Below, piece by piece: positions 1 to 41,859 of a stretch of DNA of 42,049 nt. This DNA is from a virus. Both the position numbers and the translations under genes were made by a program. The stretch spans positions 1 to 42,049 of the IMG/VR virus record IMGVR_UViG_3300020160_002517. One strand, written 5' to 3'. The notes beneath the pieces were generated by a model. The model ran no database searches. It saw only the letters and a program-made list of their open reading frames with translations, and was not told the origin of the DNA. Numbering within the stretch: position 1 is the stretch's first letter; every line of letters starts with the position of its first letter.

Positions 1-1569
1 AAACATAGAGTCTATCTGACCTTCAAAGATAAAAATATATGGATAGTTCTCATCAATTTTATCTAAGTTGAATATTGGTTTTTTAGAACCAAACTTAACA
101 AGATATTTTGCTTTAGAATCACTGTCTAATAATTTTCTAGAAATATAGTTTTCGATTTTTCCTGTAGAATTATAATAAGGAATTATTAAACGGTTGCCAT
201 GAAACTTATCATTAACACAACAATAAAACGTTTTTGGTGCATTGAGTGCAGTGAATAAACGACGTTCAGAACAATAATTCTTAGCTTTGTTAACAGAGGG
301 ATATGAAGAGAAGTATTTTAACTGTAAATCATCTTTTAAATTTACACACTCTCCTGGCAATGAGGGTAATTCGAAACTTTTTTCTTCAAAACTCTCAACA
401 ACTAATTTGAAATTAGAATCGCCGCTATAATCTTTAAGCTCTTCTTTTATTTGCTTGAAACTTTGTCCAGTAACTTCTTTTACCCAACAAAATGTATTCC
501 ATCCTCTATTGCAATTCCCTGTTAGAATATTATCCGCAAGATAAAATCCACCTGTAACAGGTTCTTCTAAACAAAAGACTTCTTCTACACCGACAAATTC
601 TTTTTTTCGTAAAACTACATCAGAGTTTTCTTTTAAAGAAATGCTATAAATGGGTTTAGCATTAGAATAACAGTTTTTTCTATTTTTTGGAGAAGGTTCA
701 TTTACTAAACGAAAACCTCCCATCGAAGCATAATTTTTAATCCATTCTACAAGGTCTTTCCGAGTCGTTGATATTGTATATCTCCGATCATTATGACCAT
801 CAGTTAACCATAATCCATAAATAAATCCTGCTATATATTTAGGATCAATAGTTGTAGGAACATCTTTTAATCCGGGAATATTTCCTAAATTTACATACAC
901 ATCACCTTTATAATTAGGAGGATAATGTAATTTATACCCTGCATCAGAAAGAATTTTTAATATCTCATCTTTACGTGAGTCTTGCTTACATACGCGAATA
1001 ATCGCGTATCGTTTAGAACCTTTATATTTTCTATAAGTTCCATCACCAAAAATAATACCATGAACTAACCCTTCAATAGAGCGTTCTTCACTATATTCCA
1101 TACTATCTAATCTGTCTCCTATTTTGAGATTTGTTGTATAATCGTATTTTCGACGTTTTTTATCTCTTTTTATAAACCATTTATGATTTTCTGTAGCTTT
1201 TATTATATATTCTCTGGGAGATTTAGCTACATTACCAAAAGTATATTCGAACACAGGCTGCAAACCGTAACTGTTTATAATACGTTTACGCCATACACCA
1301 TCTTTACATTTAATTGTAACCGATAAATTGTTTATTTTTTTAAATTCTATTGGTCCGTATTCTAATGTTAAAATTTTCACATCTCCTGAAAAACAATTAT
1401 GGCAGTAGATATAGTCTTCATCTAAGAAATAAAATAGTCTTTTTCTTTTGCCCCAAGAATTTCCCTCTCTACAAACAGGACAGCAACCATTTAGGTATGA
1501 ATTCGTTTCACGAACTCCACTTGAATAAGAGTATATTTTGTCTATAACATATGTCTGAGGCAATTCCAC
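1..1569 (-). CDS. DNA primase (T4 gp61-like), intein-containing, 3' end beyond the window
   Basis: Open frame of 523 codons from a GTG at 1569 to the left edge, so the C-terminus is missing. Once the intein (residues 59-352) is removed, the exteins join into a primase zinc ribbon: CPVC at residues 30-33 pairs with CHN (56-58) plus Cys353, giving CHNC followed by NRGW. Further on, a Toprim-type FEGQIDSMF lies at the last visible residues. This matches the Zn-ribbon plus Toprim layout of T4 gp61/DnaG-type primases that make RNA primers with the replicative helicase. An in-frame TAA lies two codons before the GTG, and a sigma70-like promoter ends 5 nt upstream of it, which supports this start; TTG at 1563 is the alternative. 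It is transcribed away from the late gene at 1625. Residues visible in the sequence; primase identity inferred from motifs and the phage context. Confidence 0.85.
   Translation of the reverse strand, partial: MELPQTYVIDKIYSYSSGVRETNSYLNGCCPVCREGNSWGKRKRLFYFLDEDYIYCHNCFSGDVKILTLEYGPIEFKKINNLSVTIKCKDGVWRKRIINSYGLQPVFEYTFGNVAKSPREYIIKATENHKWFIKRDKKRRKYDYTTNLKIGDRLDSMEYSEERSIEGLVHGIIFGDGTYRKYKGSKRYAIIRVCKQDSRKDEILKILSDAGYKLHYPPNYKGDVYVNLGNIPGLKDVPTTIDPKYIAGFIYGLWLTDGHNDRRYTISTTRKDLVEWIKNYASMGGFRLVNEPSPKNRKNCYSNAKPIYSISLKENSDVVLRKKEFVGVEEVFCLEEPVTGGFYLADNILTGNCNRGWNTFCWVKEVTGQSFKQIKEELKDYSGDSNFKLVVESFEEKSFELPSLPGECVNLKDDLQLKYFSSYPSVNKAKNYCSERRLFTALNAPKTFYCCVNDKFHGNRLIIPYYNSTGKIENYISRKLLDSDSKAKYLVKFGSKKPIFNLDKIDENYPYIFIFEGQIDSMF
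514..1395 (-). other. Intein with LAGLIDADG homing endonuclease inside the primase zinc ribbon
   Basis: 294-residue in-frame insertion, primase residues 59-352. Splicing block A is seen as CFSGDVKILT at the N-terminus (Cys1), block B as KATENHKW (the TxxH type) near residue 124. Two dodecapeptide (LAGLIDADG-type) motifs follow, LVHGIIFGDG near 168-177 and FIYGLWLTDG near 249-258, each with its catalytic Asp (176, 257). The C-terminal block reads FCLEEP...FYLADNILTGN, followed by Cys353 as the +1 nucleophile. The penultimate residue is Gly where most inteins have His; the terminal Asn is kept. The motifs look intact, so both splicing and endonuclease functions may be active. Splicing would restore a metal-binding CxxC that the insertion divides. 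Confidence 0.9.
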
Positions 1570-1574
1570 ACTTT

Positions 1575-1603
1575 ATTATACCATAGAAAATACATTGTTT
1601 CAA
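1575..1603 (-). promoter_or_regulatory. sigma70-like promoter of the primase gene
   Basis: TTGAAA (1598-1603), 17-nt spacer, TATAAT (1575-1580), read on the minus strand. The -10 box ends 5 nt before the GTG start, so transcription would begin at or next to the start codon. Confidence 0.75.
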
Positions 1604-29079: not shown

Positions 29080-29107
29080 TATTTAGTTACTTTCTTAGAG
29101 CTTTCAA
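29080..29107 (-). promoter_or_regulatory. promoter of the 66-aa gene
   Basis: TTGAAA (29102-29107), 16-nt spacer, TAAATA (29080-29085), 8 nt to ATG 29071; it overlaps the end of the gmd-like gene. Confidence 0.55.
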
Positions 29108-30064
29108 CCAATATTCAGTCATTTCATCTATCATAGAATGAAATGTTATTTCTGGTTTCCAATTTAATTCTTTTCTAGCTTTAGAAGAATCGCCTTTTAA
29201 GAAATCTAATTCTTCTGGACGAATATATTTTTGATCAACAATTACATAGTCTTCCCACTTAAGAGAAAGACTACCAAAAACAGTTTCAACTAATTCTTTT
29301 ACTGAACGTGTCTCACCTGTTGCAATTACATAATCACTAGGTGAATCTTTTTGAATCATTCTCCACATAGCTTCTACATAATCTTTAGCATGACCCCAAT
29401 CTCTATATGCATCAAGATTTCCAAGTTTAAGATTTTTTTCTTGATTTAGGAATATTTTAACTGCACCTAGAACAACTTTATTTGTTACGAAATTTATACC
29501 TCTTCTTGGAGATTCATGATTGAATAAAATACCAGATGTTATAAACATGTCGTATGAATTGCGATAGTTGTTGCATAAGTTAAAACCATATAATTTAGAA
29601 CAACCATACGGACTTACAGGAATCATTTTTGTAGTTTCTCTTTGAAATTTATCCGCATCATAACAATTACCAAACATTTCGCTAGTTGCTGCAAAATACA
29701 CTTTTGAATGTGGTGAGAATCGTCTTACTGCTTCAAGAACTGCAAGAGTTCCACCACAATTTGCATCAAGTGTATATTTAGGTAATTCAAAAGAGATTTG
29801 AACGTGTGACTGTGCAGCAAGATGATAAATTTCATCAGGTTGTAAATCCTTAATAACCTGTTCTACACTAATAGTATCAGTTAAATCTGCATAGTGTAAA
29901 ACTATTTTATTACTTTCAAATATACTTTGAATTCTTGTTGTTTGTGATTCTGGAACAGAATTTCTTCTAATAGTTCCATGAACATCGTATCCTTTATCTA
30001 TAAGCAATTCTGCTAGATAAGATGCGTCTTGACCATTTGCGCCGATTATTAATGCCTTTTTCAT
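29087..30064 (-). CDS. gmd: GDP-mannose 4,6-dehydratase
   Basis: 325 residues, as expected for the family (about 320-370). NAD(P)-binding GANGQDASYLAE at 8-19; HLAAQSHVQ near 81-89; the catalytic region ATSEMFG (Thr127, Glu129) and YGCSK (Tyr153, Lys157), all present; NHESPRRG and YRDWGHAKDYVEAM are typical Gmd signatures. It converts GDP-mannose to GDP-4-keto-6-deoxymannose in the cytoplasm, the first step to GDP-L-fucose, GDP-rhamnose or GDP-perosamine. The ATG overlaps the stop of the GDP-fucose synthase gene (ATGA), so both are made together. With the GT11 at 33068 it points to fucose use. Confidence 0.92.
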   Translation of the reverse strand: MKKALIIGANGQDASYLAELLIDKGYDVHGTIRRNSVPESQTTRIQSIFESNKIVLHYADLTDTISVEQVIKDLQPDEIYHLAAQSHVQISFELPKYTLDANCGGTLAVLEAVRRFSPHSKVYFAATSEMFGNCYDADKFQRETTKMIPVSPYGCSKLYGFNLCNNYRNSYDMFITSGILFNHESPRRGINFVTNKVVLGAVKIFLNQEKNLKLGNLDAYRDWGHAKDYVEAMWRMIQKDSPSDYVIATGETRSVKELVETVFGSLSLKWEDYVIVDQKYIRPEELDFLKGDSSKARKELNWKPEITFHSMIDEMTEYWLKALRK

Positions 30065-30990
30065 ATATTGTTATTCTTAAACCATTCTATTGTTTCTTCC
30101 AAAGCTTTTTCTATAGGAGTGAATCTGAAAGAAGGATTCATAGTTTGTAATTTTTTATTAGATACTGTTCTTTTATATTGACCATCACTAAAAGAAGAGT
30201 CGTAAATTATATTCTCTACTCCGATTATTTTTGATATAATCTCTGAAATGTTTTTTATGGAAATTTCATCTTCTTCACTTGGAGAAAATATTATAGTTTC
30301 TTTTTCGTTATAATTTTTATACGCCCAAATTATAAGCTTGGCTAAATCTTTCGAATATATAAATTGACGAAGCGAACTTCCAGTTCCTCTAACTACTAGA
30401 GGTTTATTTTCGGATTTTGCTAACACTGCTTTTCTTATAAGACCAGGTATAACATGTCCAGTATCTTCAGAAAAATTATCAAATGGTCCAAATATATTAG
30501 TAGGTGTTATTGTAATATAATTACGTCCATACATATCTCGGTATTTTTTAGATAAAACATCTACCATTCTTTTTGCATATGCATAGCAGTTATTAGAATC
30601 ATGAGGAGGTCCAGAATGTATATCATTTTCTGACATAGGAAGTTCTAACCAAGAACAATCATTTAATTCAGGAAATATACAAACAGATAAACATGATATT
30701 ACTTTTTCTACATTGTATTTATGACTATATTTTAAAACATTAGAATTTATCTTAATGTTTTTATCAAAAAGGTCTATTCCTAAGTTTAGATTTTTATACA
30801 GACCACCACAATCTGCGGCTAAGTTAATAACTCCTACAGGATTGAAATCTTTAAAAATTTTTTCAGTAGATTTTTCAGAAGTTAAATCTGCGTCTTTACT
30901 ACTGAGAAAAATAAGATTTAAATCTGTATCAAGTTCTTTTAAGGAAGAACCTACCATTCCGGTTCCACCAAAAACTAAAATATTTTCCAT
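30061..30990 (-). CDS. fcl: GDP-L-fucose synthase (GDP-4-keto-6-deoxymannose epimerase/reductase)
   Basis: 309 residues (family about 310-320). Nucleotide-binding GGTGMVGS at 8-15; INLAADCGGL near 55-64; catalytic LSVCIFPE around 101-108 (Ser102) and YAYAK with Tyr136 and Lys140; SGPPHDSN near 126-133 matches the family's GPPH motif; TNIFGPFDNF and GSSLRQFIYSKDLA further on. It finishes GDP-L-fucose synthesis from the product of the neighbouring Gmd. The two overlap by 4 nt. The best promoter in the glycan island lies 5 nt before the start. Confidence 0.9.
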   Translation of the reverse strand: MENILVFGGTGMVGSSLKELDTDLNLIFLSSKDADLTSEKSTEKIFKDFNPVGVINLAADCGGLYKNLNLGIDLFDKNIKINSNVLKYSHKYNVEKVISCLSVCIFPELNDCSWLELPMSENDIHSGPPHDSNNCYAYAKRMVDVLSKKYRDMYGRNYITITPTNIFGPFDNFSEDTGHVIPGLIRKAVLAKSENKPLVVRGTGSSLRQFIYSKDLAKLIIWAYKNYNEKETIIFSPSEEDEISIKNISEIISKIIGVENIIYDSSFSDGQYKRTVSNKKLQTMNPSFRFTPIEKALEETIEWFKNNNI

Positions 30991-30995
30991 ATTAT

Positions 30996-31024
30996 TATAT
31001 ATTATATAAAGAACTAATTTTCAA
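30996..31024 (-). promoter_or_regulatory. promoter of the fcl-gmd unit
   Basis: TTGAAA (31019-31024), 17-nt spacer, TATATA (30996-31001), 5 nt to ATG 30990. A TATAAT lies two bases further downstream (spacer 19). Confidence 0.6.
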
Positions 31025-31049
31025 CTAAATAATATTTCTGATATTTTAT

Positions 31050-31763
31050 TTATTTAAATGTATACAATTTCGAATGTATATAGTTTATTTCATTTTCATA
31101 TTGTTGATATGTTTTAAGATATGTGCTATCATCATGAACTCTATGATCATAATGCATATCTTTTAATATATGAATTTCTAAATCTGTTTGTTCAAAATAC
31201 ATTATTAGAAATAATATTGAATCTGCTGGTGATTTGTATATTTTCGAAGTCGGATCGTCTATTACTAGATTTTCTAGAAGACTTTTATTTAAAACATAAT
31301 TACAGGTATTTAAAAATGTTGAAAAAATTTCATATTTTTTAAAATTCTCGTATAAATTATGTTTTGTAATTATAGTATTTTCTAAAAATCTATAATCAAA
31401 GTTAGGTTTTGCAAAAGAAGGTGCTAATATACATGTATCTTTTAATGTATTAGATTTTATATATTCTTCTGCTTTTTTAAAATAATTATCATCAGCAAAA
31501 TTATCAGAATCTAATAATGCTATCCATTTATTACTAGCGTGTTTACAGCATTCCAGTTTATTAAAAAATATACCAAGTCTTTTTTCATTTTTAAATAAAC
31601 GTAATTTATCACTATGAAATGAGTTTTTTATTTTATCAACATCATTTCCGCTATCATCAGTTATTATTATTTCACTTATTAAATTATTAGAGATATATTT
31701 ATCTAAAGTTTTGGATAAAAACTCATCATATCTCTCATATGTAGGTATACACAAACTAAACAT
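31050..31763 (-). CDS. Glycosyltransferase family 2-like
   Basis: 237 residues. GT-A start FSLCIPTYERYDEFLSKTL, then EIIITDDSGNDV and KWIALLDSDNFADDNY near 82-97, where LLDSD is the DxD-type metal and nucleotide-sugar binding site. The C-terminal third probably forms the acceptor site and is not recognisable. It inverts the configuration of the sugar it transfers if it behaves like family 2; donor and acceptor are unknown. Very AT-rich codons, like its upstream neighbours. Overlaps the upstream gene by 8 nt. Confidence 0.75.
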   Translation of the reverse strand: MFSLCIPTYERYDEFLSKTLDKYISNNLISEIIITDDSGNDVDKIKNSFHSDKLRLFKNEKRLGIFFNKLECCKHASNKWIALLDSDNFADDNYFKKAEEYIKSNTLKDTCILAPSFAKPNFDYRFLENTIITKHNLYENFKKYEIFSTFLNTCNYVLNKSLLENLVIDDPTSKIYKSPADSILFLIMYFEQTDLEIHILKDMHYDHRVHDDSTYLKTYQQYENEINYIHSKLYTFK

Positions 31764-32457
31764 TGTATATATTTATAATTTTATCTTGTAATTCTCCTGA
31801 AAATTCTCCGTTTGTTCTTAAAAGAGTAAACTCCATATTTGAACGAGCTATTTGTAATTCTTTATAATGAACACAAAATTTAAAAAAGGTTTCATAATGA
31901 AAAATACCACCTAGATCCATATACATATCCAATAAGTCTAATCTATTAGATAGAAAATCCATGTTTTCAGAATTAGAAAAATAAAAACGATCATTATAAC
32001 CGTGATGATCATCATGGTCTGTTGTATATACGTAATTTTTCATATCCCAAGATTCTATATTTTTCTCTAAGCAAGAGTTATCAATAATTAATATATCTGG
32101 ACGTATTCTCACTACAATGTCGTATATAAAACTATTTTCTTTTTCATATCGAATTTTTAAGCTATTACATTTTTTTAAACAATATAATTGTCTTAACAAA
32201 CCTTGAACAAAAACTTCTGATCTTTTACTCTTTTCATAGACATCTCTTTCTGGTAAAGTTATTCGATTTTCAATTAAGATATTTTTGGTATGCGAGTCAT
32301 TTTCTATATAACTTAATTTAGAAAGATCAGGATCATCGTTCCACGTATGATAAAAAATATCATAGTCTGAAAACCTATTCATTAATTTTTCTTTCATTAA
32401 TGAATAGGTTTTATCTATACTTCGTAACTCTCCTGAAAAACAAAATGCAGTTCTCAT
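31756..32457 (-). CDS. Probable glycosyltransferase-like protein of unknown type
   Basis: 233 residues from ATG 32457, which overlaps the stop of the FkbM gene (ATGA); a start at 32499 would run further into that gene. The N-terminus, TAFCFSGELRSIDKTY, and the centre, YDIVVRIRPDILIIDN (about 115-130), are the two conserved marks of a family that occurs in capsule and O-antigen clusters ('fcFSGqlR...DvvvR.RPD'), often called putative glycosyltransferases. The rest has many acidic and aromatic residues (TTDHDDHHGYNDRFYF). Enzyme activity has not been shown for the family as far as I know, so the role is inferred. Confidence 0.6.
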   Translation of the reverse strand: MRTAFCFSGELRSIDKTYSLMKEKLMNRFSDYDIFYHTWNDDPDLSKLSYIENDSHTKNILIENRITLPERDVYEKSKRSEVFVQGLLRQLYCLKKCNSLKIRYEKENSFIYDIVVRIRPDILIIDNSCLEKNIESWDMKNYVYTTDHDDHHGYNDRFYFSNSENMDFLSNRLDLLDMYMDLGGIFHYETFFKFCVHYKELQIARSNMEFTLLRTNGEFSGELQDKIINIYNV

Positions 32458-33071
32458 TGTCTCATATAAAAACCGTCTCCCCAAGTTCCTCCCATCCAAT
32501 TTGTTTCTAAGCGATGCATATTAAATTGCTTTAAAAATTGGTCCAACTCTTCAACCATACAACATCCTTCATACAGTTCAGTGTTATTAACTTCTGCTAT
32601 TAAAAATTCTATATTTTTAAGAGTGGCAGTCGCCCCTTTCAATACCTCTAATTCAAAACCTTGAACATCAATAGATATAAAATTATAGCTTTTATCTAAT
32701 TGGAAACTATCCAATGTCTTAACAGGAACTTCTATTACATTTTCAAATCTTATATGTGGATATTGGTTAACATGGTATTTAGGTTTTAAGAGTGAATTAC
32801 TCTGCCCCTGATTAGTAGTCTCTACAAAAAGTTCCATAGTTGTTTCCTTTGAACCTAATGCCACATTATGACAGTTTATTTGAGAGAATATAGAAACATT
32901 ATTCTTCATTATAGAAAACGTGTCGGGATGTGGTTCAAAAATTTCAACCGTACAATTGGGGTTAATTTCTTTATATAGTTTTACCTCATGTCCGTGATGA
33001 CCACCAATATGAATAACATTTTGTAAATTCATATTATATTTCGTTATTAGTTGTTTTAAATCAAATATCAT
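32454..33071 (-). CDS. FkbM-family SAM-dependent methyltransferase
   Basis: 205 residues. NVIHIGGHHGHEVKLYK (about 18-34) is the SAM-binding GxGxG region; VEIFEPHPDTF near 42-52 the acidic loop; VPVKTLDSF and YNFISIDVQGFELEVLKG near 130-147 are the hallmark FkbM strand ('iDvqG.E..vl.G'); IEFLIAEVNN follows. It probably O-methylates a sugar or sugar-linked group on the glycan made by this cluster; the substrate is unknown. Linked by ATGA overlaps to the gene on each side. Confidence 0.85.
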   Translation of the reverse strand: MIFDLKQLITKYNMNLQNVIHIGGHHGHEVKLYKEINPNCTVEIFEPHPDTFSIMKNNVSIFSQINCHNVALGSKETTMELFVETTNQGQSNSLLKPKYHVNQYPHIRFENVIEVPVKTLDSFQLDKSYNFISIDVQGFELEVLKGATATLKNIEFLIAEVNNTELYEGCCMVEELDQFLKQFNMHRLETNWMGGTWGDGFYMRQ

Positions 33072-33805
33072 ATTTCTATTTTTATCATATCATTTCGGTA
33101 TATATCCGAAACATCAGAGTTTACGTTAAACCATTTATTAGGTGCTAGTGTAATTTTATTTTTTCCTAAATAACTACCCCACCAACCAAAAGAGCTATTA
33201 GATATTATAGCAAAATCACATTTGGAGATAGTTTTTAAATCTTGTAATTCATCAGATGAAACAAATTCATATTTTATGTTAGAGGGTATATATTTAAGAG
33301 CATAATTATTGTTATCAGAAACAATTTTGAATACTATATTCTCATTAATAGATAAAATATAATTTACTGCATTTTGAAAATATTTAGGTGTAACTATATC
33401 AAACTCTGTTCTATTTAAATAATCGCCAGTTCTTATATGAATTATACAAATATTTGTCGGGTCTTCATCACATCTGAAATCTAGTAATTCATTTATTTCA
33501 TTTTTCTTATTCAGAAAATATTTTTCTGTCTGAAAAAATCCTTCTAGTAATAAATCTTTTGAATATTCTATAGATGTGTAGTTAAACTGTGGTTCTTTAT
33601 AAAGATTCGATCCTATATGATTTGTTTTATTTATATTTTTGAATAAAGAATTTATATAATTATTTATAGAGTTTCCCTGTCCTCTCCCTTTATCTAAAAA
33701 AGGATTTATACCATACTCATCACCATTTTGTTTTGCTAAAAAATAACCGACTATTACTTGAAATAATTGATTTCCCAATCCTCCTCTATAGATACTAGTT
33801 ATCAT
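33068..33805 (-). CDS. Alpha-1,2-fucosyltransferase-like enzyme, GT11
   Basis: 245 residues, slightly short for GT11 (about 270-300). Three motifs are plain: GGLGNQLFQ at 8-16, HIRTGDY at 123-129 (the H-x-R-x-G-D-Y nucleotide-sugar site) and SNSSFGWWG at 202-210. GT11 enzymes move L-fucose from GDP-L-fucose to galactose in alpha-1,2 linkage. The window also encodes both enzymes that make GDP-L-fucose, so donor supply and transfer are coded together. Acceptor unknown. Directly abuts the next gene (33806). Confidence 0.85.
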   Translation of the reverse strand: MITSIYRGGLGNQLFQVIVGYFLAKQNGDEYGINPFLDKGRGQGNSINNYINSLFKNINKTNHIGSNLYKEPQFNYTSIEYSKDLLLEGFFQTEKYFLNKKNEINELLDFRCDEDPTNICIIHIRTGDYLNRTEFDIVTPKYFQNAVNYILSINENIVFKIVSDNNNYALKYIPSNIKYEFVSSDELQDLKTISKCDFAIISNSSFGWWGSYLGKNKITLAPNKWFNVNSDVSDIYRNDMIKIEI

Positions 33806-34474
33806 TTATTTTAAAAAAGAACAAATATATCGGTATCCTACAATACCACCATCATGTCTTTTTTCAGCATGATTATATAATCTATTAACATTATGAAAAG
33901 TATCATATAATAAAGTTTCATCTGTTCCATTTCTGACATCAATAATAAGTTGTCCGTCTTCTTTTAAGTTATATTTTATATAATCAAGATAGGTATTAAT
34001 AGAATAATGCCAACCACATGATAAAAGAGAGATAATTAAATCCAATTTTTTATCTACATTTTTAATTTCGTCGGCATCAACAATAACATAAGAATTGTTT
34101 TGTATATTATTTTTACAAAATTGATCTAGTAAATCCATGTTATTATAAAATACATATTCTTTATTAAACCCATTAAATTTTCGTGCAGTATCTATATCTT
34201 GTGATTTATCTAAAAGATAATATGTTGCATTTTTTGACTTTTCTGATAAAGCAACATCTATAGTAGCTAATCCACAACCAATGTCTAAAATATTACAATT
34301 ATCTAAACTTGAAATATATTTTTCGATTAAATATAAATCTTTATATGCCATTTGTGACAATGCAGAACATATCTGTTCTTCTGAACTATCTGGTATTATA
34401 CCATACTCTGTTTTTAATCTTGTTCTTTGAATAAGAACAAAATCTATATATTTTTTATCGAAGAATTTTATCAT
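33806..34474 (-). CDS. SAM-dependent methyltransferase, class I
   Basis: 222 residues. NILDIGCGLA near 60-69 is the SAM-binding motif I, followed by YYLLDKS (motif II region), the helix and SYVIVDADE, then LDLIISLLSCGWHY near 140-153 and a final strand pair (GQLIIDVRN). Substrate not predictable; in this place it may methylate a sugar or a sugar-nucleotide intermediate. Ends 1 nt before the GT11 start. A complete promoter lies 6 nt before its ATG, so a transcript may begin here. Confidence 0.7.
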   Translation of the reverse strand: MIKFFDKKYIDFVLIQRTRLKTEYGIIPDSSEEQICSALSQMAYKDLYLIEKYISSLDNCNILDIGCGLATIDVALSEKSKNATYYLLDKSQDIDTARKFNGFNKEYVFYNNMDLLDQFCKNNIQNNSYVIVDADEIKNVDKKLDLIISLLSCGWHYSINTYLDYIKYNLKEDGQLIIDVRNGTDETLLYDTFHNVNRLYNHAEKRHDGGIVGYRYICSFLK

Positions 34475-34480
34475 GAAAAA

Positions 34481-34509
34481 TATTTAATATGTTAATTATC
34501 AAACTTCAA
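34481..34509 (-). promoter_or_regulatory. promoter of the methyltransferase/GT11 unit
   Basis: TTGAAG (34504-34509), 17-nt spacer, TAAATA (34481-34486), 6 nt to ATG 34474. The -35 box lies within the 3' end of the upstream gene. Confidence 0.6.
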
Positions 34510-35290
34510 GTTTAATTCTATCAACAACTGCACCATCTGTTACCCAAGGTAAAAAGTCTCTAAGAAGACAAGGAAACTTAGTATTTTTCTGTAAGCGTTT
34601 CCAATGTGAAACTGCATTACGGTAGCCATAAAAATCTTCTTTGAAAGCGACCTGATTTTCTAGATAGTATGCATAGTGATCAAACACCCATCCCTTTTCA
34701 GAGGTTACGTTTCGATGTAAAAATCGGTTTAAACCTTCTAGTCTTGGAGGTTCATGAGAAATCCATCTTGTAGGTTTTTTAATATGCCAATGACGACTCC
34801 ACTGGTCCCAAGGATTTCCGTAATGTCCTTCATTAGAAATATAAAGTCCTGGTCCTACAAAATAATTACATTTAAGCATAAATCCGTCAACTTCATCAAA
34901 CTTTTCTTCTGAGAAATTGAGAAGTTCTTCTAACTTTTCAGTTGTCCATATTTCATCAACATCAAATTCCATAAGAATTGAAGGTGTTTTAATTCGGTCC
35001 ATAAAAGAATTACACATATCAACTTTACCGTCCCAAAAAGTTCCATTAGTTCGGAGAACATGAATTCTGTCAGATTTGATATGATCTAAAAACTCTGTTG
35101 TTCCATCAACAGATAATTTAAATTCGTTATAATATTTATCTGGTATGTTACTACACCATGCTGTATCTTTTGTAGGTTTTGTTGCACCTTCTATGATATA
35201 CCAATTATCAAAAACTTTTGGTATAATTTTATATTGCCATTCTAAGTATGGCATCCCGTTTAGTACGATTGTGAATGCGTTTTTTTCCAT
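34499..35290 (-). CDS. Probable glycosyltransferase, GT-A type
   Basis: 263 residues. The start, FTIVLNGMPYLEWQYKIIPK, and SILMEFDVDEIWTTEKL near 103-120 (an acidic DxDE site at the place of a DxD) fit the GT-A fold seen in glycan-making transferases with a family-17/92-like layout. Many Trp, His and Tyr residues follow (WDQWSRHWHIKKPTRWISHE), which may line a sugar pocket. Donor unknown. Its DNA is visibly less AT-rich than the neighbours to its left. It begins 1 nt before the end of the next gene. Confidence 0.6.
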   Translation of the reverse strand: MEKNAFTIVLNGMPYLEWQYKIIPKVFDNWYIIEGATKPTKDTAWCSNIPDKYYNEFKLSVDGTTEFLDHIKSDRIHVLRTNGTFWDGKVDMCNSFMDRIKTPSILMEFDVDEIWTTEKLEELLNFSEEKFDEVDGFMLKCNYFVGPGLYISNEGHYGNPWDQWSRHWHIKKPTRWISHEPPRLEGLNRFLHRNVTSEKGWVFDHYAYYLENQVAFKEDFYGYRNAVSHWKRLQKNTKFPCLLRDFLPWVTDGAVVDRIKLEV

Positions 35291-35291
35291 G

Positions 35292-36014
35292 TTAAATTTC
35301 TATCCAATCTAATTTAGTTCGCGGCTTTCCTTTCCAGTATCCGTCTTTTAATTTTTTTCCATAATATCCATTTCTTAATAAGAGATGACGAGTTTCTTTA
35401 CAAGGTATGTTCAACTGTTCAATAATATTAATAAAACAACTATCAACAATTATATGTTTAGTAGAATTTTCTAAAATTTTTATCCAATCAAAAACACTAT
35501 CTGTTAAGAACTCTATAGTAATAAGTTGTAAGTCTCCTGCATATCGAACGTCATCACGATTACCGTCTGATGTTTTAGTTACACATACTACATAATTCGG
35601 TTCTTTTACTAACTTATCATATAGAATATCTTCTTTTTCTATATTTCTGTTTATTTCCAATTTCCATTTTTCTTCAAATGGAACATCTGCCAGAAAATAT
35701 TTATACTCATCAAATGAATAAAGATCTTGTGATAAATAATTCTGTGTATTAAAATTATTTGCTCCTGGTAAAGTAAATGACACATCAATTACTTTACTAC
35801 AGAAATTATCAAAACATGTTTGATGAGCGACTCTACAATCAAAATCAATAGGGATAAAAGTTACATAATCAATATACCCTAAAAAATTATTAATAATATT
35901 TCGATCTATAGGCCAAATTACTTCATAACCTCTATCATTATACCATTTAGCTATTGGAAGACAAATAACTATATCTCCTATTTTTCCGGGTTGTATTATT
36001 CCTAATTTTTTCAT
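35292..36014 (-). CDS. Glycosyltransferase family 9-like (heptosyltransferase type)
   Basis: 240 residues, short for GT9. The N-terminus, LGIIQPGKIGDIVICLPIAK, is the family's 'G.iGD.i...P' motif, followed by RGYEVIWPI. Another segment, VDSCFINIIEQLNIPC near 190-205, resembles the C-terminal nucleotide-sugar pocket, though the usual G-x-x-H is not clear. Family members move a heptose or similar sugar onto lipopolysaccharide cores. The distribution of motifs makes a shortened or divergent enzyme likely. Overlaps the next gene by 4 nt (ATGA). A TAAATA box 6 nt before the ATG is noted, without a -35 box. Confidence 0.55.
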   Translation of the reverse strand: MKKLGIIQPGKIGDIVICLPIAKWYNDRGYEVIWPIDRNIINNFLGYIDYVTFIPIDFDCRVAHQTCFDNFCSKVIDVSFTLPGANNFNTQNYLSQDLYSFDEYKYFLADVPFEEKWKLEINRNIEKEDILYDKLVKEPNYVVCVTKTSDGNRDDVRYAGDLQLITIEFLTDSVFDWIKILENSTKHIIVDSCFINIIEQLNIPCKETRHLLLRNGYYGKKLKDGYWKGKPRTKLDWIEI

Positions 36015-36877
36015 TCCACGTATTTAATCTGATTACTAGTATGTATGTTCATTATATCGAAAAAAGTTTTTTGTATTAACTGTTCGTTTACTTGTGGTTG
36101 AAGAAACGCACCCCATGGTTTTCTTTTACAGAGATTATACTGTAAATTAAAAAACATAATATTAGTTGCAATTTTGAATAAATCATTAGAATCATGAACT
36201 TTATGGTTATGATCACGTTCAGGACAATCTATTGTTACAGAATCCGTACCATGATGTATATGCAGTGCCATCATAGGATAATTATTTGCAATATGAGTAT
36301 TCTTACCAAAGAGCACCATAAGACCTGCATATGTATCATCGAAAAGTGGTTTTCCAATCAAAAATTTACTAACGAAATATTTCTTATATTGTTCAAACCA
36401 ACTCTTTTCAAAAACAAAAAAATCATAACCTGCAATTTCATTTCTCACAGGAATAACCTTTTCATCTAAAACACTTTGAAAAGAATCTATATTTTCAATA
36501 TCTAGTCTTGGTCCTGCCATACAATCAGGTTTTTGTGTTAAAATATATTCTATAAGACGAGGAAGAAGAATAACATCTGAATTTGTGTAAATTAAATAAT
36601 CGCATTTGCTATACGCGAATCCTCGAAAAATTATTTCTGATATTACAGGAAGTTTTTTAGTTATATTTTTGATATATGTTTTACTCGATGTATCTAAACA
36701 AAAAACAGTTTCTACTCCATCATAATGATCAGTAAAGGTATTTTTCTCATCTTTGAATTGAAGATTATACAATCTTATATTGTCAGGAAATAATGATTTT
36801 AAATGAATCCAAGATTCTGATGCTACGTTCTGTCGATGGTATTTGCCGAACGTGTTGGTTATAATTGCAATTTGCAT
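36011..36877 (-). CDS. Probable glycosyltransferase-like protein
   Basis: 288 residues. The start, AIITNTFGKYHRQNVASESW, and KCDYLIYTNSDVILLPRLIE (about 90-109), with Asp where a DxD would lie, suggest a GT-A fold. The region FVFEKSWFEQYKKYF and the His-rich MMALHIHHGTDSV are of a kind seen in hypothetical glycan-cluster proteins. I cannot place the family with more confidence. Translationally linked to the GT9-like gene (ATGA overlap) and 3 nt after the next one. Confidence 0.5.
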   Translation of the reverse strand: MQIAIITNTFGKYHRQNVASESWIHLKSLFPDNIRLYNLQFKDEKNTFTDHYDGVETVFCLDTSSKTYIKNITKKLPVISEIIFRGFAYSKCDYLIYTNSDVILLPRLIEYILTQKPDCMAGPRLDIENIDSFQSVLDEKVIPVRNEIAGYDFFVFEKSWFEQYKKYFVSKFLIGKPLFDDTYAGLMVLFGKNTHIANNYPMMALHIHHGTDSVTIDCPERDHNHKVHDSNDLFKIATNIMFFNLQYNLCKRKPWGAFLQPQVNEQLIQKTFFDIMNIHTSNQIKYVE

Positions 36878-36880
36878 AAT

Positions 36881-37651
36881 TTATTTTTTTAATTTTTTTA
36901 ACACATCAATCAGATAAGTTAGAGATAATACAGGAATCTGTGAAATAAATAAGCCGTGTTTCTTATTAAAATATTCATAATCAGGTTGTAATCTTGTAAA
37001 ACGCTTACCATCTGCATCAAGTCTAGATGATGCTGATTCATTATTGTTTATTAAATCGTCCGAATTTCTTAAATCAGGAAAATTCCAAAAAGGAATTCCT
37101 AACTCGCGTAAAGCTCTATAAGCAAAATCTACATCAAATGTATAGTTGAAATGTTCATCATACAATCCTATTTTATCAATGATTTTTCTAGAAGTGTATG
37201 TAAATTCGTTACACATATTTTTATTAAAAACTAAAGATATGTTAGAAGAATATTCTACAATTTGATTTGGTGTTCGATTACCTTTTTGACCTGCTTCCCA
37301 TGCAATAGAAGAATATATGAAATATTCTACTCCTGTCTTTTTACTTGCATTTATATATTGTTCAAAGACTGAAGGATCTTTGAACAACATATCGTCTTCA
37401 CAAACAAAAAAGTGATCTATATCTTCTTCTAATAGATATTTTAAACCGTCATTTCGAGCAACAGATGGATACCGTACACTGTCATGTTGAATCCAATAGA
37501 GATTCTCATGATCATAAACATCCTTATAAGGTTCTCCTCCATTTACAACAACCACTTTATCTAATCTATCAAAAGGAATAGTGTTATACAAATCCTTAAA
37601 ATAGCTTTCAGAATTAAAAGTTGTTATTACTAATCCTATCTTTTCTTTCAT
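36881..37651 (-). CDS. Glycosyltransferase family 2-like
   Basis: 256 residues. IGLVITTFNSESYFKDL, KVVVVNGGEP near 33-42, YPSVARNDGLKYLLEEDI and HFFVCEDDMLFKDPSV near 80-96, with EDD as the metal site. The later segment FTYTSRKIIDKIGLYDEHF...DVDFAYRAL has the D-x-D-x-x-x-R layout often seen at the acceptor site of GT2 proteins (YDEHFFDVDFAYR-type). Donor and acceptor unknown. Overlaps the AAA+ ATPase gene by 4 nt. Confidence 0.7.
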   Translation of the reverse strand: MKEKIGLVITTFNSESYFKDLYNTIPFDRLDKVVVVNGGEPYKDVYDHENLYWIQHDSVRYPSVARNDGLKYLLEEDIDHFFVCEDDMLFKDPSVFEQYINASKKTGVEYFIYSSIAWEAGQKGNRTPNQIVEYSSNISLVFNKNMCNEFTYTSRKIIDKIGLYDEHFNYTFDVDFAYRALRELGIPFWNFPDLRNSDDLINNNESASSRLDADGKRFTRLQPDYEYFNKKHGLFISQIPVLSLTYLIDVLKKLKK

Positions 37652-38805
37652 AAATTAATAAATCCTATTGATTTCTTTTCTTTTTTCTCACCAAATTCAT
37701 TCTCATCATTATAGATTTCAGCAAGAGTCATTTTTTTCTTTGGTGGTGCTTCACCATAAAGTTTATTAAAAAGATGTTTTGTTTTTTCTTCTGAAAGGGA
37801 GTCGAATTTATATTTCAAAAACATACGTCCTTTACGTTTTAGTGCAGCATCAATTTTATCTTCGTCAGTATTAAATGTTGCAATAATCTTGAAGTTTAAT
37901 ACATCTGCCATAATACCATCACAAAGATTTAGTAAGATAGAGATTATACTATTATCTGCGGAATCTTCACGGTTTATAAGAATTTTCTCTGCATCTTCGA
38001 TAATGATAATGCTTTCTTTTTCTCGCTTAATAATCGGAAAGAATGCAGGATCTGCCATGCTGTTTACCAGATACGGAGGAATATAAATCTTTTTAGAAGA
38101 AGTGATACTGTTTAATATATACTTGATGTAGTTAGTCTTGCCACTACCAGGAACTCCATGAAGAAGAACAAGTTTATTATTACGAGCTTTAAAATCTTCT
38201 GCCCATGTTTTGATTTTATTATGTACTGGAATAAAATCATCGTTATAATTTTCGCTCAAATCAAGATCATAGTTTTTGATTGGATGAGGAGTAAGAATCA
38301 TTTCGTTATACTCTGTTTTTTCAAAAAGAAGAATTTTACCACTATCGGTTAAATCTTTTTTACAGAAAAAATCTTCTTTAATTTTATTAACAAACTCTGA
38401 ACCTTTATAAAGATCATAACAAACAGAAATAGTAGCATACTCGTCAGCGTTATCTACATCACTATCAGAAATTACAAAATCATTACTTTTGCGATCATTT
38501 ACTTGAATAATGGTTTTTTTCTCATCATTGAAAAAGAATACAGATTCAATTGAATTACGATTATAAACCGAACGAACAAATCCAACTTTAAAGTCTGCTG
38601 CAATAAATGCTTTTAAAACATCTATAAAACGATTTTTCTTATATTCTATATCAGCAGTTGAAGGAATGTTTGCATATTTTAATACATATAAAAACTCTTC
38701 GTATGCAGTAGAATCTTTACCAAGAACAAACTTTCCATCATTTATATTAATGGTTTCTTCTATAAAAACTGCGCCTAGCTCTTTTAGCTTATCAATAAAA
38801 CTCAT
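37648..38805 (-). CDS. AAA+ ATPase (Bcs1/CDC48-like)
   Basis: 385 residues. N-terminal domain (1-205) without recognised motif, then an AAA+ core: Walker A HGVPGSGKT at 216-224, Walker B SIIIIEDAEK (Glu270, Asp271), a sensor-1-like IIATFNTDEDKID and an arginine finger region ALKRKGRMFLKY near 330. The C-terminal tail is Lys-rich. It could unfold or disassemble a protein complex. Its sequence is not like the clamp loader gp44 (no SRC motif seen). Found inside the glycan island with a strong sigma70 promoter 5 nt upstream; the reason for that company is unknown. Confidence 0.75.
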   Translation of the reverse strand: MSFIDKLKELGAVFIEETININDGKFVLGKDSTAYEEFLYVLKYANIPSTADIEYKKNRFIDVLKAFIAADFKVGFVRSVYNRNSIESVFFFNDEKKTIIQVNDRKSNDFVISDSDVDNADEYATISVCYDLYKGSEFVNKIKEDFFCKKDLTDSGKILLFEKTEYNEMILTPHPIKNYDLDLSENYNDDFIPVHNKIKTWAEDFKARNNKLVLLHGVPGSGKTNYIKYILNSITSSKKIYIPPYLVNSMADPAFFPIIKREKESIIIIEDAEKILINREDSADNSIISILLNLCDGIMADVLNFKIIATFNTDEDKIDAALKRKGRMFLKYKFDSLSEEKTKHLFNKLYGEAPPKKKMTLAEIYNDENEFGEKKEKKSIGFINL

Positions 38806-38810
38806 AAAAG

Positions 38811-38839
38811 AATATAAACTACATTGTCTTACTTGTCAA
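38811..38839 (-). promoter_or_regulatory. sigma70-like promoter of the AAA+ ATPase gene
   Basis: TTGACA (38834-38839, perfect -35), 17-nt spacer, TATATT (38811-38816), 5 nt to ATG 38805. The -35 overlaps the end of the upstream gene. Confidence 0.8.
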
Positions 38840-39683
38840 CAATGTTCTCCAATAAAGCTTTTTGAGAGTAATTTCTTTCAAGGAAATTTAATCTTTCTTG
38901 AACTTCCTCGATTGATGAATCTGTTACTTCATGCGGATAGTAATTATATTTGTCTTTAAAAATACCCCAGCTTGTGGAAAAGTTAGAAGTAAATTCTTTA
39001 CTATTTCTAATAACAGAACTACCGTGATTTTCGTCAATATCCTCAAGATATTCAAACGAGTTTTCAATATCAGGAAAATACCAATAGTTACAACCAAGAG
39101 CTTTTAAATATGCTGATAGATAATGATCAAGATGTTCAGCAGCATTAAGATAGTTTTCAGCGAAATATCCAATATGATTTAAAGTGTTTGCATGATACAA
39201 TACAAAAGCATGAAAGCTGTTACGATACAAATCTACTTTATTCGCTGTATATTGCACTGTAAGGCGTTTTAAAGGTGTTCCATCAGGAGAAACATTACCT
39301 CCGCCTACTCCACCATGTACACCATAAGATAGTTGTCCTGCCCATAGCCCACTGTCCATAGCAGTTTCAATATACTTTTGAAAAACCTTATTATCTTTTA
39401 CACGAACATCATCTTCCATTAGGAAAAGAAACTCATAACCATTTTTCTTCATTTCTCGAAGAGCAATGTTTTTTGCAATTCCAACAACTGTTGGATTTCG
39501 GTTACATTGAATAATTCTAACACCTTCTGGCTTATCTTTTAAATGACTACCAGCATTAATAATAAAAATTTCTCCTACAGAGTCTTTATCAATAGATGAT
39601 AAAGCTTTGTGGAGAAATTCTTCACGGTTACATGTGATAATAGCTACTGCTGTTTTGTTTTTAAACTTATTAATGATGTTCAT
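38829..39683 (-). CDS. Glycosyltransferase family 2-like
   Basis: 284 residues. AVAIITCNREEFLHKALSSI near 12-31, GEIFIINAGSH near 37-47, VVGIAKNIALREM near 66-78 and EFLFLMEDDVRVKD near 83-96 (EDD as the metal site) give the GT-A order of family 2. Another site, YLNAAEHLDHYLSAYLKALG, probably belongs to the acceptor part. It is the first gene of the glycan island read from its promoter side and is divergent from the homing endonuclease gene across 71 nt. No clear -35 box was found; a TTATAC box sits 6 nt before the ATG. Confidence 0.7.
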   Translation of the reverse strand: MNIINKFKNKTAVAIITCNREEFLHKALSSIDKDSVGEIFIINAGSHLKDKPEGVRIIQCNRNPTVVGIAKNIALREMKKNGYEFLFLMEDDVRVKDNKVFQKYIETAMDSGLWAGQLSYGVHGGVGGGNVSPDGTPLKRLTVQYTANKVDLYRNSFHAFVLYHANTLNHIGYFAENYLNAAEHLDHYLSAYLKALGCNYWYFPDIENSFEYLEDIDENHGSSVIRNSKEFTSNFSTSWGIFKDKYNYYPHEVTDSSIEEVQERLNFLERNYSQKALLENIVDK

Positions 39684-39754: not shown

Positions 39755-40471
39755 ATGAATGCTGACCAATTCATCGAAGAATCTATTAAAATACATGAAA
39801 ACAAATATGATTATTCTTTAGTAGAATTTAAAGTTAAACATAAGGATGTAACCATCATATGTCCAATTCATGGAAAATTTCAGCAATGGCCTAAAAGACA
39901 TCTATTAGGAGGTTGTAAACTATGTGGAATAAACAATAGAATTGCAAAATTATTTATAAATAAAAATATTTTTATAGAACGTGCTGTTAAAATTCATGGA
40001 AATTATTATAACTATGATAGTGTAGATTATAAATATTCTAACATCAAAGTAGATATAAAATGTAATACTTGTAATTTAATTTTTAGTCAAACACCAGCAA
40101 GTCATTTACAAAAGAGAGGCTGTCCAAAATGTAAATTCTCACAAGGAGAAAAACAAATTGAAAAGTTTTTAACAGATAATAATATAATTTTTATTTATCA
40201 AAAAATTTTCAAAGATTTAAAAGGAATGAAAGGAGGATATTTAAAATTCGATTTTTATATACCAGAAAATAATCTATGTATAGAATATGACGGAGAGCAG
40301 CATTTTGATACAACATCTAAATATTGGTCTAATTCTATAGTAGAAAACGATAATAAAAAAAATTTATATTGTCGTGAAAATAATATTCAATTATTAAGAA
40401 TCTCTTATTTAGATAAAGATCGGATAGAAGAAATAATATCTTCTATGTTAGCCATAGCACCTAAACCATAA
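39755..40471 (+). CDS. Free-standing homing endonuclease, zinc-finger repeats plus Vsr-like nuclease
   Basis: 238 residues. Two copies of a metal-binding module: VTIICPIHGKFQQWPKRHLL-GGCKLC (about 32-57) and VDIKCNTCNLIFSQTPASHL-KRGCPKC (about 93-122), typical of phage DUF723-type repeats. Then the nuclease domain: GEKQIEKFL, FDFYIPENNLCIEYDGEQHF (about 166-185, the Vsr/EDxHD-type active site with Asp, Glu, Asp, Gln-His), and LYCRENNIQLLRI. Family knowledge: such enzymes cut a phage locus lacking them and spread by repair. The gene is on the strand opposite to all neighbours and its 3' end overlaps the coaC-like gene by 67 nt. It has its own promoter. Confidence 0.8.
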   Translation: MNADQFIEESIKIHENKYDYSLVEFKVKHKDVTIICPIHGKFQQWPKRHLLGGCKLCGINNRIAKLFINKNIFIERAVKIHGNYYNYDSVDYKYSNIKVDIKCNTCNLIFSQTPASHLQKRGCPKCKFSQGEKQIEKFLTDNNIIFIYQKIFKDLKGMKGGYLKFDFYIPENNLCIEYDGEQHFDTTSKYWSNSIVENDNKKNLYCRENNIQLLRISYLDKDRIEEIISSMLAIAPKP

Positions 40472-40950
40472 TCTCCACAAAATAATTTTTTGGTCTGTGG
40501 TGGTACAACAACAATACCCCAAGATTTTAAAATATTTAAATGTTGCTCTGTTATCGGATGAGAATACATTAAATCATTCATTGAGGGTGCAACAATAAAA
40601 GGTTTATTAAAGTCCCATGCTCTTGCTACGCACGTAAGAAGATTATCGCAAATACCATTAGCTAGTTTAGCAAGTGTGTTTGCAGAAAGTGGAGCAATTA
40701 TAAAAACATCTGCCCATTTAGAAAGGTCAATATGTAATACTTTTTTTGAAGATTGATATGTATTCCACTCTTCTGCATCATCATATACTTCATCACTTCT
40801 AAACCAAAAATCATCTAGCTTTACAAAATTTAAAGATGACTGAGTAAAGATAAATTTATTTGAAATATTCTTATCAGAATAGTATTCTTTCTTAAATTTA
40901 TTAAGAAGTGTAGTTGCAACACTTCCTGTGTAACCGTGTAAAATATTCAT
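40405..40950 (-). CDS. Phosphopantothenoylcysteine decarboxylase, HAL3/eukaryote-like type
   Basis: 181 residues, single domain. Flavin and active-site motifs are present: TGSVAT near 8-13, VLHIDLSKWAD with His73, PLSANT at 87-92, CDNLLTCVARAWD near 101-113, PSMNDLMY at 122-129 (Asn125, Met128) and FCGDYGLGAMA with Cys158. All match the plant HAL3a enzyme (VLHIELRRWAD, PLSANT, PAMNxxM, ACGDYGNGAMA) closely, more than the N-domain of bacterial CoaBC. It would decarboxylate phosphopantothenoylcysteine to phosphopantetheine with FMN. The 3' end is shared with the homing gene on the other strand; the last 20 residues are thus coded there. Joined to the next gene by ATGA. Confidence 0.8.
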   Translation of the reverse strand: MNILHGYTGSVATTLLNKFKKEYYSDKNISNKFIFTQSSLNFVKLDDFWFRSDEVYDDAEEWNTYQSSKKVLHIDLSKWADVFIIAPLSANTLAKLANGICDNLLTCVARAWDFNKPFIVAPSMNDLMYSHPITEQHLNILKSWGIVVVPPQTKKLFCGDYGLGAMANIEDIISSIRSLSK

Positions 40951-41231
40951 GGTAATGATAATGCACAGATATGTGCTAGTTTTTTTCCTTTTTCAGTAGG
41001 TTCAAATCTTGCAACTACATGATGACCCTCTATAAAATGAGGATCAAGAGTTTCAACATCATAAGGAACGATTGCATCACAAAGCATTAATTTTTCACCA
41101 TTAAATGTTTTACAACCATCATATCGTGCAAGAATTATGGTATAAGAATTTACAATTTCTCTTTCTATGATTGTAAATTTATAAGGATCAGGCTTACAGC
41201 CCATTGCTATTTTTTGAATCTGAACGCTCAT
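40947..41231 (-). CDS. Small protein between the two coenzyme A genes, unknown
   Basis: 94 residues; an in-frame ATG at 41204 would give 85. The start overlaps the end of the CoaB-like gene by 38 nt (11 nt from the second ATG) and its end overlaps the CoaC-like gene by 4 nt. Strand-rich, with YTIILARYDGCKTFNGEKLM and HHVVARFEPTEKGKKLAHI. Cys residues at 12, 40, 51 and 88 do not form a clear metal motif. No family recognised. The tight coupling to both genes suggests a role with CoA synthesis or a shared regulon, but no direct evidence. Confidence 0.6.
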   Translation of the reverse strand: MSVQIQKIAMGCKPDPYKFTIIEREIVNSYTIILARYDGCKTFNGEKLMLCDAIVPYDVETLDPHFIEGHHVVARFEPTEKGKKLAHICALSLP

Positions 41232-41859
41232 TTTTATTTTTCAATATAATATCTACAAGTTCGTGTGCATCTCTCGCTTCTTCAAAACTCATGTCTGGCT
41301 TAAAAACAAAACGAGAAAGATTACCTTTTCTAATCTCAGTAAGATCATTATATATAACAAGGTCTGCGCCGTTAGAAAACACCTTTTTTACAGCGGTTTC
41401 AACCTCAGAAGGTGTTGGGCTTACTAAGAGTTTAAACCCTACTAGAAAAGCATTTGGAGCGGCTTCACGAATCAATGGTAAAACCTTTTGTGCTTTCTTT
41501 AAACGAATAACTAATTCATCACTATCACTAGAAATTTTACCTTCTGTTTTATCTAAAATATAATCTGACACTGCCGCAGCAGAAATAATTATATCATACG
41601 GTAAAGAATCTTTTTTCTGAAAATTACTTAGATATGATTCATAATCTTTAAAGAATAATTGGTTATAACTACCTGTGTCTGCCCAATGATTTATAATTGG
41701 TTTTACAGCATTTTTAGAAGAGAAATAAAGAACATCATGTAATTTTTCAAAAAATACTGATGCGATTTCTGCACCGTATTTCCCAGAACTCATGTTGGAA
41801 ATTTTACGAACATCATCAATAGGAACATCTGTTCCACCGCTTGTAATTAAGATTTTCAT
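41194..41859 (-). CDS. Phosphopantothenate-cysteine ligase (CoaB-like)
   Basis: 221 residues. ITSGGTDVPIDDVRKISNMS (5-24) and SSGKYGAEIA are the nucleotide-binding start of CoaB. DIIISAAAVSDYI near 90-102, EGKISS near 106-111, KAQKVLPLIREAAPNAFLVG near 120-139 and GADLVIYNDL near 160-170 match the family order. It is a free-standing domain, not fused to CoaC as in most bacteria, and begins at the stop of the upstream gene (TAATG). It would join phosphopantothenate and cysteine at the cost of a nucleoside triphosphate, the step just before the CoaC-like enzyme. Confidence 0.8.
   Translation of the reverse strand: MKILITSGGTDVPIDDVRKISNMSSGKYGAEIASVFFEKLHDVLYFSSKNAVKPIINHWADTGSYNQLFFKDYESYLSNFQKKDSLPYDIIISAAAVSDYILDKTEGKISSDSDELVIRLKKAQKVLPLIREAAPNAFLVGFKLLVSPTPSEVETAVKKVFSNGADLVIYNDLTEIRKGNLSRFVFKPDMSFEEARDAHELVDIILKNKNERSDSKNSNGL

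Follow-up and report, generated by a model that had tools for sequence, protein, structure and literature searches.

What is an intein doing inside the zinc ribbon of a phage primase, at a cysteine that should serve both as a metal ligand and as a splicing nucleophile? Is it a switch that couples maturation of the primase to zinc or redox state, or an ordinary mobile element that happens to have landed in a delicate place? The locus lies at the edge of IMG/VR virus record IMGVR_UViG_3300020160_002517, whose full length of 42,049 bp (positions 1 to 42,049) was analyzed and will be referred to as the window; all coordinates are given within it. A first-pass annotation, made from the letters alone, had placed a LAGLIDADG intein at 514-1395. 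Those exact coordinates were recovered, and the splicing blocks, the predicted fold and the copy found in a second virus all agree with the identification.

The host gene is read on the minus strand from a GTG at position 1569 down to position 1, where the end of the record cuts it off after 523 amino acids (1..1569). Both features had been pointed out before, and the GTG is shared by most close orthologs. With the insert set aside, the remaining protein (the extein) matches the DNA primase family phrog_47 (4.4e-17) and the T4 gp61 chains 8gao_G and 8dvf_H (2e-5), and the homology spans the zinc ribbon and the polymerase domain, so the proposed phage primase is of the gp61 type. The extein aligns end to end with two uninterrupted orthologs, L004 (82% identical) and L005 (79%), and can also be aligned to gp61 of Acinetobacter phage Acj61, of cyanophages, of a pelagiphage and of a Rhizobium phage. 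Since the record end truncates the window copy, the last third of the protein is described from orthologs, those in L003 and L004 running on to a stop codon.

Alignment with intein-less orthologs and T4-like gp61 divides the extein into an N-terminal part (residues 1-58; 1396..1569, minus strand), which carries the zinc ribbon through Asn58, and a truncated C-terminal part (residues 353-523; 1..513, minus strand), which carries the rest of the ribbon, a linker and the start of the TOPRIM polymerase domain. The first CxxC of the ribbon is Cys30-Pro-Val-Cys33 (1471..1482, minus strand). The second begins with Cys56 (1402..1404, minus strand), which serves as a zinc ligand and also lies at -3 relative to the splice junction. 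Removal of the insert restores the CxxC...CxxC ribbon, with C30, C33, C56 and C353 as ligands. Cys353, or Cys+1 (511..513, minus strand), aligns with the second Cys of the second CxxC of T4 gp61, and so the earlier claim stands that the insertion falls at a zinc-ligand cysteine that doubles as the +1 nucleophile; it would become the fourth ligand once splicing had taken place. In other words, in a ribbon numbered C30-C33/C56-C59 the intein follows Asn58 and precedes the fourth Cys. The four ribbon cysteines and Asn58 are nearly invariant in 106 gp61 sequences (those distinct sequences with both ribbon ends in the fetched loci), Cys30, Cys33 and Cys56 being present in 106/106, a constancy due in part to how the loci were found, as the scan patterns themselves partly select for Cys. 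In the T4 primosome structure, His64, Tyr66 and His71 of gp61 contact template DNA (PMC10359460), and the mapping deduced from these contacts puts the insert between Asn67 and Cys68 of T4 gp61.

The intein itself, 294 residues long (residues 59-352; 514..1395, minus strand), combines a Hint splicing domain with a LAGLIDADG endonuclease, as judged by sequence, AlphaFold2 and Foldseek. It is a residue-precise, in-frame insertion that has no counterpart in the orthologs, and the chance of 294 random open codons at the local GC content is ~4e-11. Splicing blocks A, B, F and G are complete, providing a nucleophile, TxxH, a terminal Asn and a Cys at +1. Block A (CFSGDVKILT) opens with Cys1 (residue 59; 1393..1395, minus strand), a candidate class 1 nucleophile that, before splicing, also stands where the fourth zinc ligand belongs. 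Block B (T-E-N-H-K-W; 1177..1194, minus strand) contains Thr B:7, His B:10 and Trp B:12; block F (EEVFCLEE) contains Cys F:4 (intein Cys275; 571..573, minus strand), the position of a class 3-type nucleophile; and block G (L-T-G-N; 514..525, minus strand; junction LTGN|C) contains Thr G:5, a penultimate Gly and the terminal Asn G:7. All of these residues are invariant in 50 of 50 aligned related inteins except the Gly, found in 49. The first-pass annotation had singled out Gly in place of His at this position: the Gly is there, but it is no peculiarity, given its presence in nearly all relatives. According to PMC5050341, changing the penultimate Gly of a mycobacteriophage intein to His made the precursor accumulate. 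Both endonuclease motifs keep their catalytic Asp, as had been claimed: Asp118 in motif 1 (LVHGIIFGDG; 1039..1068, minus strand) and Asp199 in motif 2 (IAGFIYGLWLTDG; 796..834, minus strand; PF14528), each found in 48 of the 50 relatives.

The predicted structure is in keeping with this anatomy. AlphaFold2, given the 50-sequence alignment, models the intein with confidence (pLDDT 92.7, pTM 0.90) as a Hint domain plus LAGLIDADG endonuclease, and a Foldseek comparison of the model to PDB returns PI-SceI (1.1e-10) and PI-PfuI (2.8e-10), with further matches to I-DmoI, to mini-inteins, to Ssp DnaE and to GyrA. PI-SceI and PI-PfuI share with the gp61 intein the Hint domain and two-motif endonuclease but are larger, reside in other host genes and are only 11-14% identical to it. 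A single-sequence model of the whole precursor was uninformative (pLDDT 32), and one made from a mixed extein/intein alignment was dropped, as the alignment was wrong.

Is the element still functional? A second virus has an intein at the same residue, 73% identical to that of the window. (It was encountered in two datasets, as L003 and L006, but the DNA is 100% identical over 9.6 kb and is counted as one virus, so that the independent viruses with the element number two.) Between the two viruses, the intein shows dN 0.24 and dS 1.27, a dN/dS of ~0.19, and its endonuclease part dN 0.30 and dS 1.20, a ratio of ~0.25, rough values in that dS is near saturation; the dN of the extein (0.246) is similar to that of the intein. 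The low ratio, together with a dN equal to the extein's, argues that the protein product of the element has stayed functional, and the sequence comparison shows purifying selection over the whole of it, endonuclease included. The notion of a decayed insertion that no longer splices, leaving a primase that either does not work or works with the insert still in it, could draw on one fact, that the splicing domain of the window intein, taken alone, scores below the Pfam and NCBIfam cut-offs. I regard it as extremely improbable, given that all catalytic residues are kept in both viruses although 27% of residues differ between their inteins, that dN/dS is low in both splicing and endonuclease parts, with no stops and a confident fold, and that an insert left in place would sever a ribbon whose T4 counterpart touches the DNA template (PMC10359460). 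The low scores have a different consequence, that annotation pipelines could overlook the intein, which refines the earlier description of the gene as easily missed.

The closest relatives of the extein, L004 and L005, lack the intein, and with them the intein-less allele that the first-pass annotation proposed looking for in related phages is found. Synteny is conserved, and the ribbon reads without interruption YCHNCNRGW in L004 and YCHKCGRGW in L005, the former containing the CHNCNRGW into which CHN|CNRGW would be joined by splicing. A tree of the exteins places the window as sister of these two empty alleles (support 100/97), apart from L003, which implies at least two gains or losses of the intein, as expected of a homing element. 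At codon 58, the gp61 of L005 has AAA, for Lys, at -1 (CHK|C); no other of the 106 gp61 sequences departs from Asn at this position. The change affects both the target DNA and the splice junction and might make L005 resistant to the intein.

The site looks rarely occupied. The insert is found in two viruses (the window and L003/L006) among the ~106 distinct gp61 sequences, a frequency to be taken as an estimate, since ranking related loci by coverage disfavors those that bear inteins. None occurs at the site in at least 864 uninterrupted records out of 889 isolate-phage gp61 matches, the other 25 having lower coverage and falling outside that count. In viral contigs, the pattern CHNC-F-x-G-D finds no site beyond the same two contigs, and CHNC-[FL]..GDT has zero matches. 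Inteins at the equivalent Cys of bacterial DnaG (HCFG|C, a pattern that covers only some block A types) were considered, but the 20 genome and 2 viral matches were all chance reading frames. Within the open-access literature (InBase lying outside the search), no intein was found in gp61 or in the zinc ribbon of any primase. One review gives bacterial DnaG as intein-bearing, in a passage that does not give the site (PMC5874633). Mycobacteriophage inteins in a TOPRIM primase resemble the present one in residing in a phage primase-type protein, and the portion of PMC5050341 that describes them annotates the host as TOPRIM-type and does not mention insertion into a zinc ribbon.

The kind of intein, as opposed to its site, is a known one. 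A family-wide search recovered from viral contigs ~70 relatives, complete or almost so, each inserted between Asn and Cys, and 45 of the 50 aligned match Pfam Intein_splicing. By my own reading of the flanks, the hosts are mostly ribonucleotide reductases (RNR), and NrdD and other RNR hosts are confirmed in annotated isolates, phages of Klebsiella, Morganella, Vibrio and Thermobifida. Judged by sequence, then, the intein is one of a phage family whose main hosts are ribonucleotide reductases, a kinship that the first-pass annotation overlooked. RNR inteins of the family, in genes of NrdD and NrdA/NrdJ type (Klebsiella phage FBKp34, Morganella phage MP1, Vibrio phage V6Aob, Thermobifida phage P318), share with the gp61 intein N|C...TG(N/Q)|C junctions, the block F Cys, the penultimate Gly and two LAGLIDADG motifs, and most of the phage RNR inteins share the T-x-x-H-x-W block B; they differ in host gene and site and are only ~25% identical to it. 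The insertion site in gp61 may have been picked because its DNA has the form CAYAAY|TGY, as do some NrdD sites. The idea that the intein moved recently from RNR to gp61 was rejected: the two gp61 inteins stand together on a separate long branch (2.68 changes per site), whose nearest join is flagged as a long-branch one, so any transfer was old.

Some relatives are of interest in their own right. One, ~30% identical (L038:3001-3897), splits at FN|CRGN a further kind of host gene, whose product I read from the flank as ParB-like. Another, in an RNR-like gene (L175:2501-3511), has an internal tandem duplication of ~30 aa near the endonuclease region, SKFEERFKELGFKSTRPLSIAGDVMVYTGKY occurring twice. 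Two more (L195:2501-2941 and L200:2501-2947) are of mini-intein size, 147-149 aa, lie at N|C sites and may be natural members of the family that have no endonuclease.

By which route would such an intein splice? Class 3 inteins carry a Trp-Cys-Thr (WCT) signature and start from Cys F:4, with no nucleophile at position 1 (PMC7891396, PMC5222942, PMC5050341). The gp61 intein has the complete triplet (Trp B:12, Cys F:4, Thr G:5), as do 50/50 relatives, a feature overlooked at first, and it has Cys1 as well, again in all 50. Position 1 is thus as in class 1 inteins, and the family is not filed as class 3. Tori and Perler (2011), in the paper that defines class 3, reportedly describe inteins that combine Ser1 with the WCT triplet. 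With Cys1 and the triplet side by side, the first nucleophile and the route cannot be read from the sequence. Cys1 might then be a placeholder, dispensable for catalysis along a class 3 route, which holds zinc so that the ribbon prefolds and correct splicing is aided. The complete triplet throughout the family would suit this proposal, as would the fact that class 3 inteins can dispense with a nucleophile at the N-terminus (PMC5222942). I nevertheless find it decidedly unlikely: the invariance of Cys1 over 50 members is what one expects of a residue in use, block B TxxH and Cys+1 are class 1-like, and class 3 inteins are without Cys1 and mostly have Ser or Thr at +1 (PMC7891396, PMC5222942). 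The class 3 intein 1 of M. smegmatis DnaB, inhibited by zinc and H2O2 (PMC7360933, PMC6195587), is an instructive comparison, sharing with the gp61 intein the WCT triplet, the block F Cys and a host in the replication primosome; unlike the gp61 intein, it has no Cys1, has Ser+1, resides in a helicase and binds zinc on the block F Cys rather than at an extein zinc site.

The same Cys1 undercuts the earlier claim that splicing must come before the zinc site can form. It is the residue immediately after Cys56-His-Asn, so that even before splicing the N-terminal part reads CPVC...CHNC, with the CxxC position filled and a set of four Cys present in the precursor. It is possible, going by these residues, that the precursor has a four-Cys site with the splicing nucleophile as fourth ligand, and zinc or a disulfide could engage Cys1 there. 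MoaA belongs to the radical SAM iron-sulfur enzymes. Its intein in P. abyssi likewise has a CxxC made of Cys-3 and Cys1 across the N-terminal junction, and a Cys-3/Cys1 disulfide controls both this intein and an engineered Ssp DnaE trap (PMC3922620, PMC10663303); the motif is present in both gp61 inteins, but MoaA is not a zinc-ribbon primase, and its regulation was shown by experiment, whereas the gp61 case is known by motif alone. In DnaB intein 1, zinc on the initiating Cys blocks splicing (PMC7360933). One can accordingly imagine a latched precursor, in which zinc on Cys30, Cys33, Cys56 and Cys1, or a Cys56-Cys1 disulfide, masks the nucleophile and gates maturation of the primase. The intact CxxC/CxxC before splicing in both viruses and the precedents just cited speak for this, but it seems to me unlikely. 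Cys-3 is owed to the conserved zinc ribbon of the host and Cys1 to the intein family, where it is invariant also in RNR hosts that have no such zinc site, and so their coincidence needs no adaptation. Furthermore, zinc inhibits several inteins in vitro, which need not mean regulation, and if the block F Cys initiates, a masked Cys1 need not block splicing. A combined scheme, in which the ribbon preforms with Cys1 as surrogate ligand, zinc or redox state times primase maturation, and two routes coexist (a zinc-sensitive one via Cys1 and a zinc-tolerant one via Cys F:4), I hold to be quite improbable.

There remains the reading that I consider very probable: a LAGLIDADG intein of the phage RNR (N|C...TGN|C) family, itself ordinary and probably still mobile, has settled in a highly conserved part of the gp61 gene, the CxN|C of the zinc ribbon. 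It is a known kind of intein at a site that I have not found described. The precise insertion favors it, as does the conservation between two viruses of the splicing residues and both catalytic Asp. On this account Cys1 or the block F Cys would attack the bond at Asn58, followed by transfer to Cys+1 and cyclization of Asn, and autocatalytic splicing would yield mature primase by joining CHN to CNRGW. Intein-less gp61 alleles would be cut by the endonuclease and receive a copy of the intein, which would persist at the site since nothing short of exact removal gives back an intact zinc ribbon. With Cys-3, Cys1 and Cys+1 gathered at one zinc site, regulation of splicing by zinc or redox state is plausible by analogy, as a side effect; nothing shows selection for such gating. 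If the site behaves as its anatomy suggests, it offers a natural test bed for whether inteins are pure parasites or post-translational switches, with occupied (window, L003) and empty (L004, L005) alleles to compare, a nucleophile at a metal-ligand position and a T4 gp61 structure already known.

Other features of the window deserve mention. A sigma-70-like promoter, TTGAAA-17-TATAAT (11/12 matches), occupies 1575..1603 on the minus strand and stops 5 nt upstream of the gp61 GTG. The region (1570-1603) is conserved in seven orthologs (the window, L003, L004, L005, L015, L016 and L017), with TACTTATTGA invariant. Across orthologs the promoter ends 5-6 nt from the GTG or ATG, with no Shine-Dalgarno sequence seen there, and the gp61 mRNA is thus probably leaderless.

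At the far end of the window, a CoaC-like flavoprotein ORF (40405-40950, minus strand; PF02441, 5.6e-28) and a separate ORF with a CoaB-like domain (41194-41859, minus strand; PF04127, 5.8e-29) make up, by their domain matches, a split pair of coenzyme A biosynthesis type in a T4-like phage. A free-standing HNH/homing-endonuclease-like gene (39755-40471, plus strand; phrog_559, 2.4e-51; phrog_9084, 2.3e-26) lies on the opposite strand and overlaps the CoaC-like ORF at the end of that ORF. The replication genes are separated from the CoaBC-like pair by a large block (~29087-39683) of ORFs resembling sugar-nucleotide enzymes, glycosyltransferases and methyltransferases, most of them identified from translations only, which includes an FkbM methyltransferase at 32454-33071.
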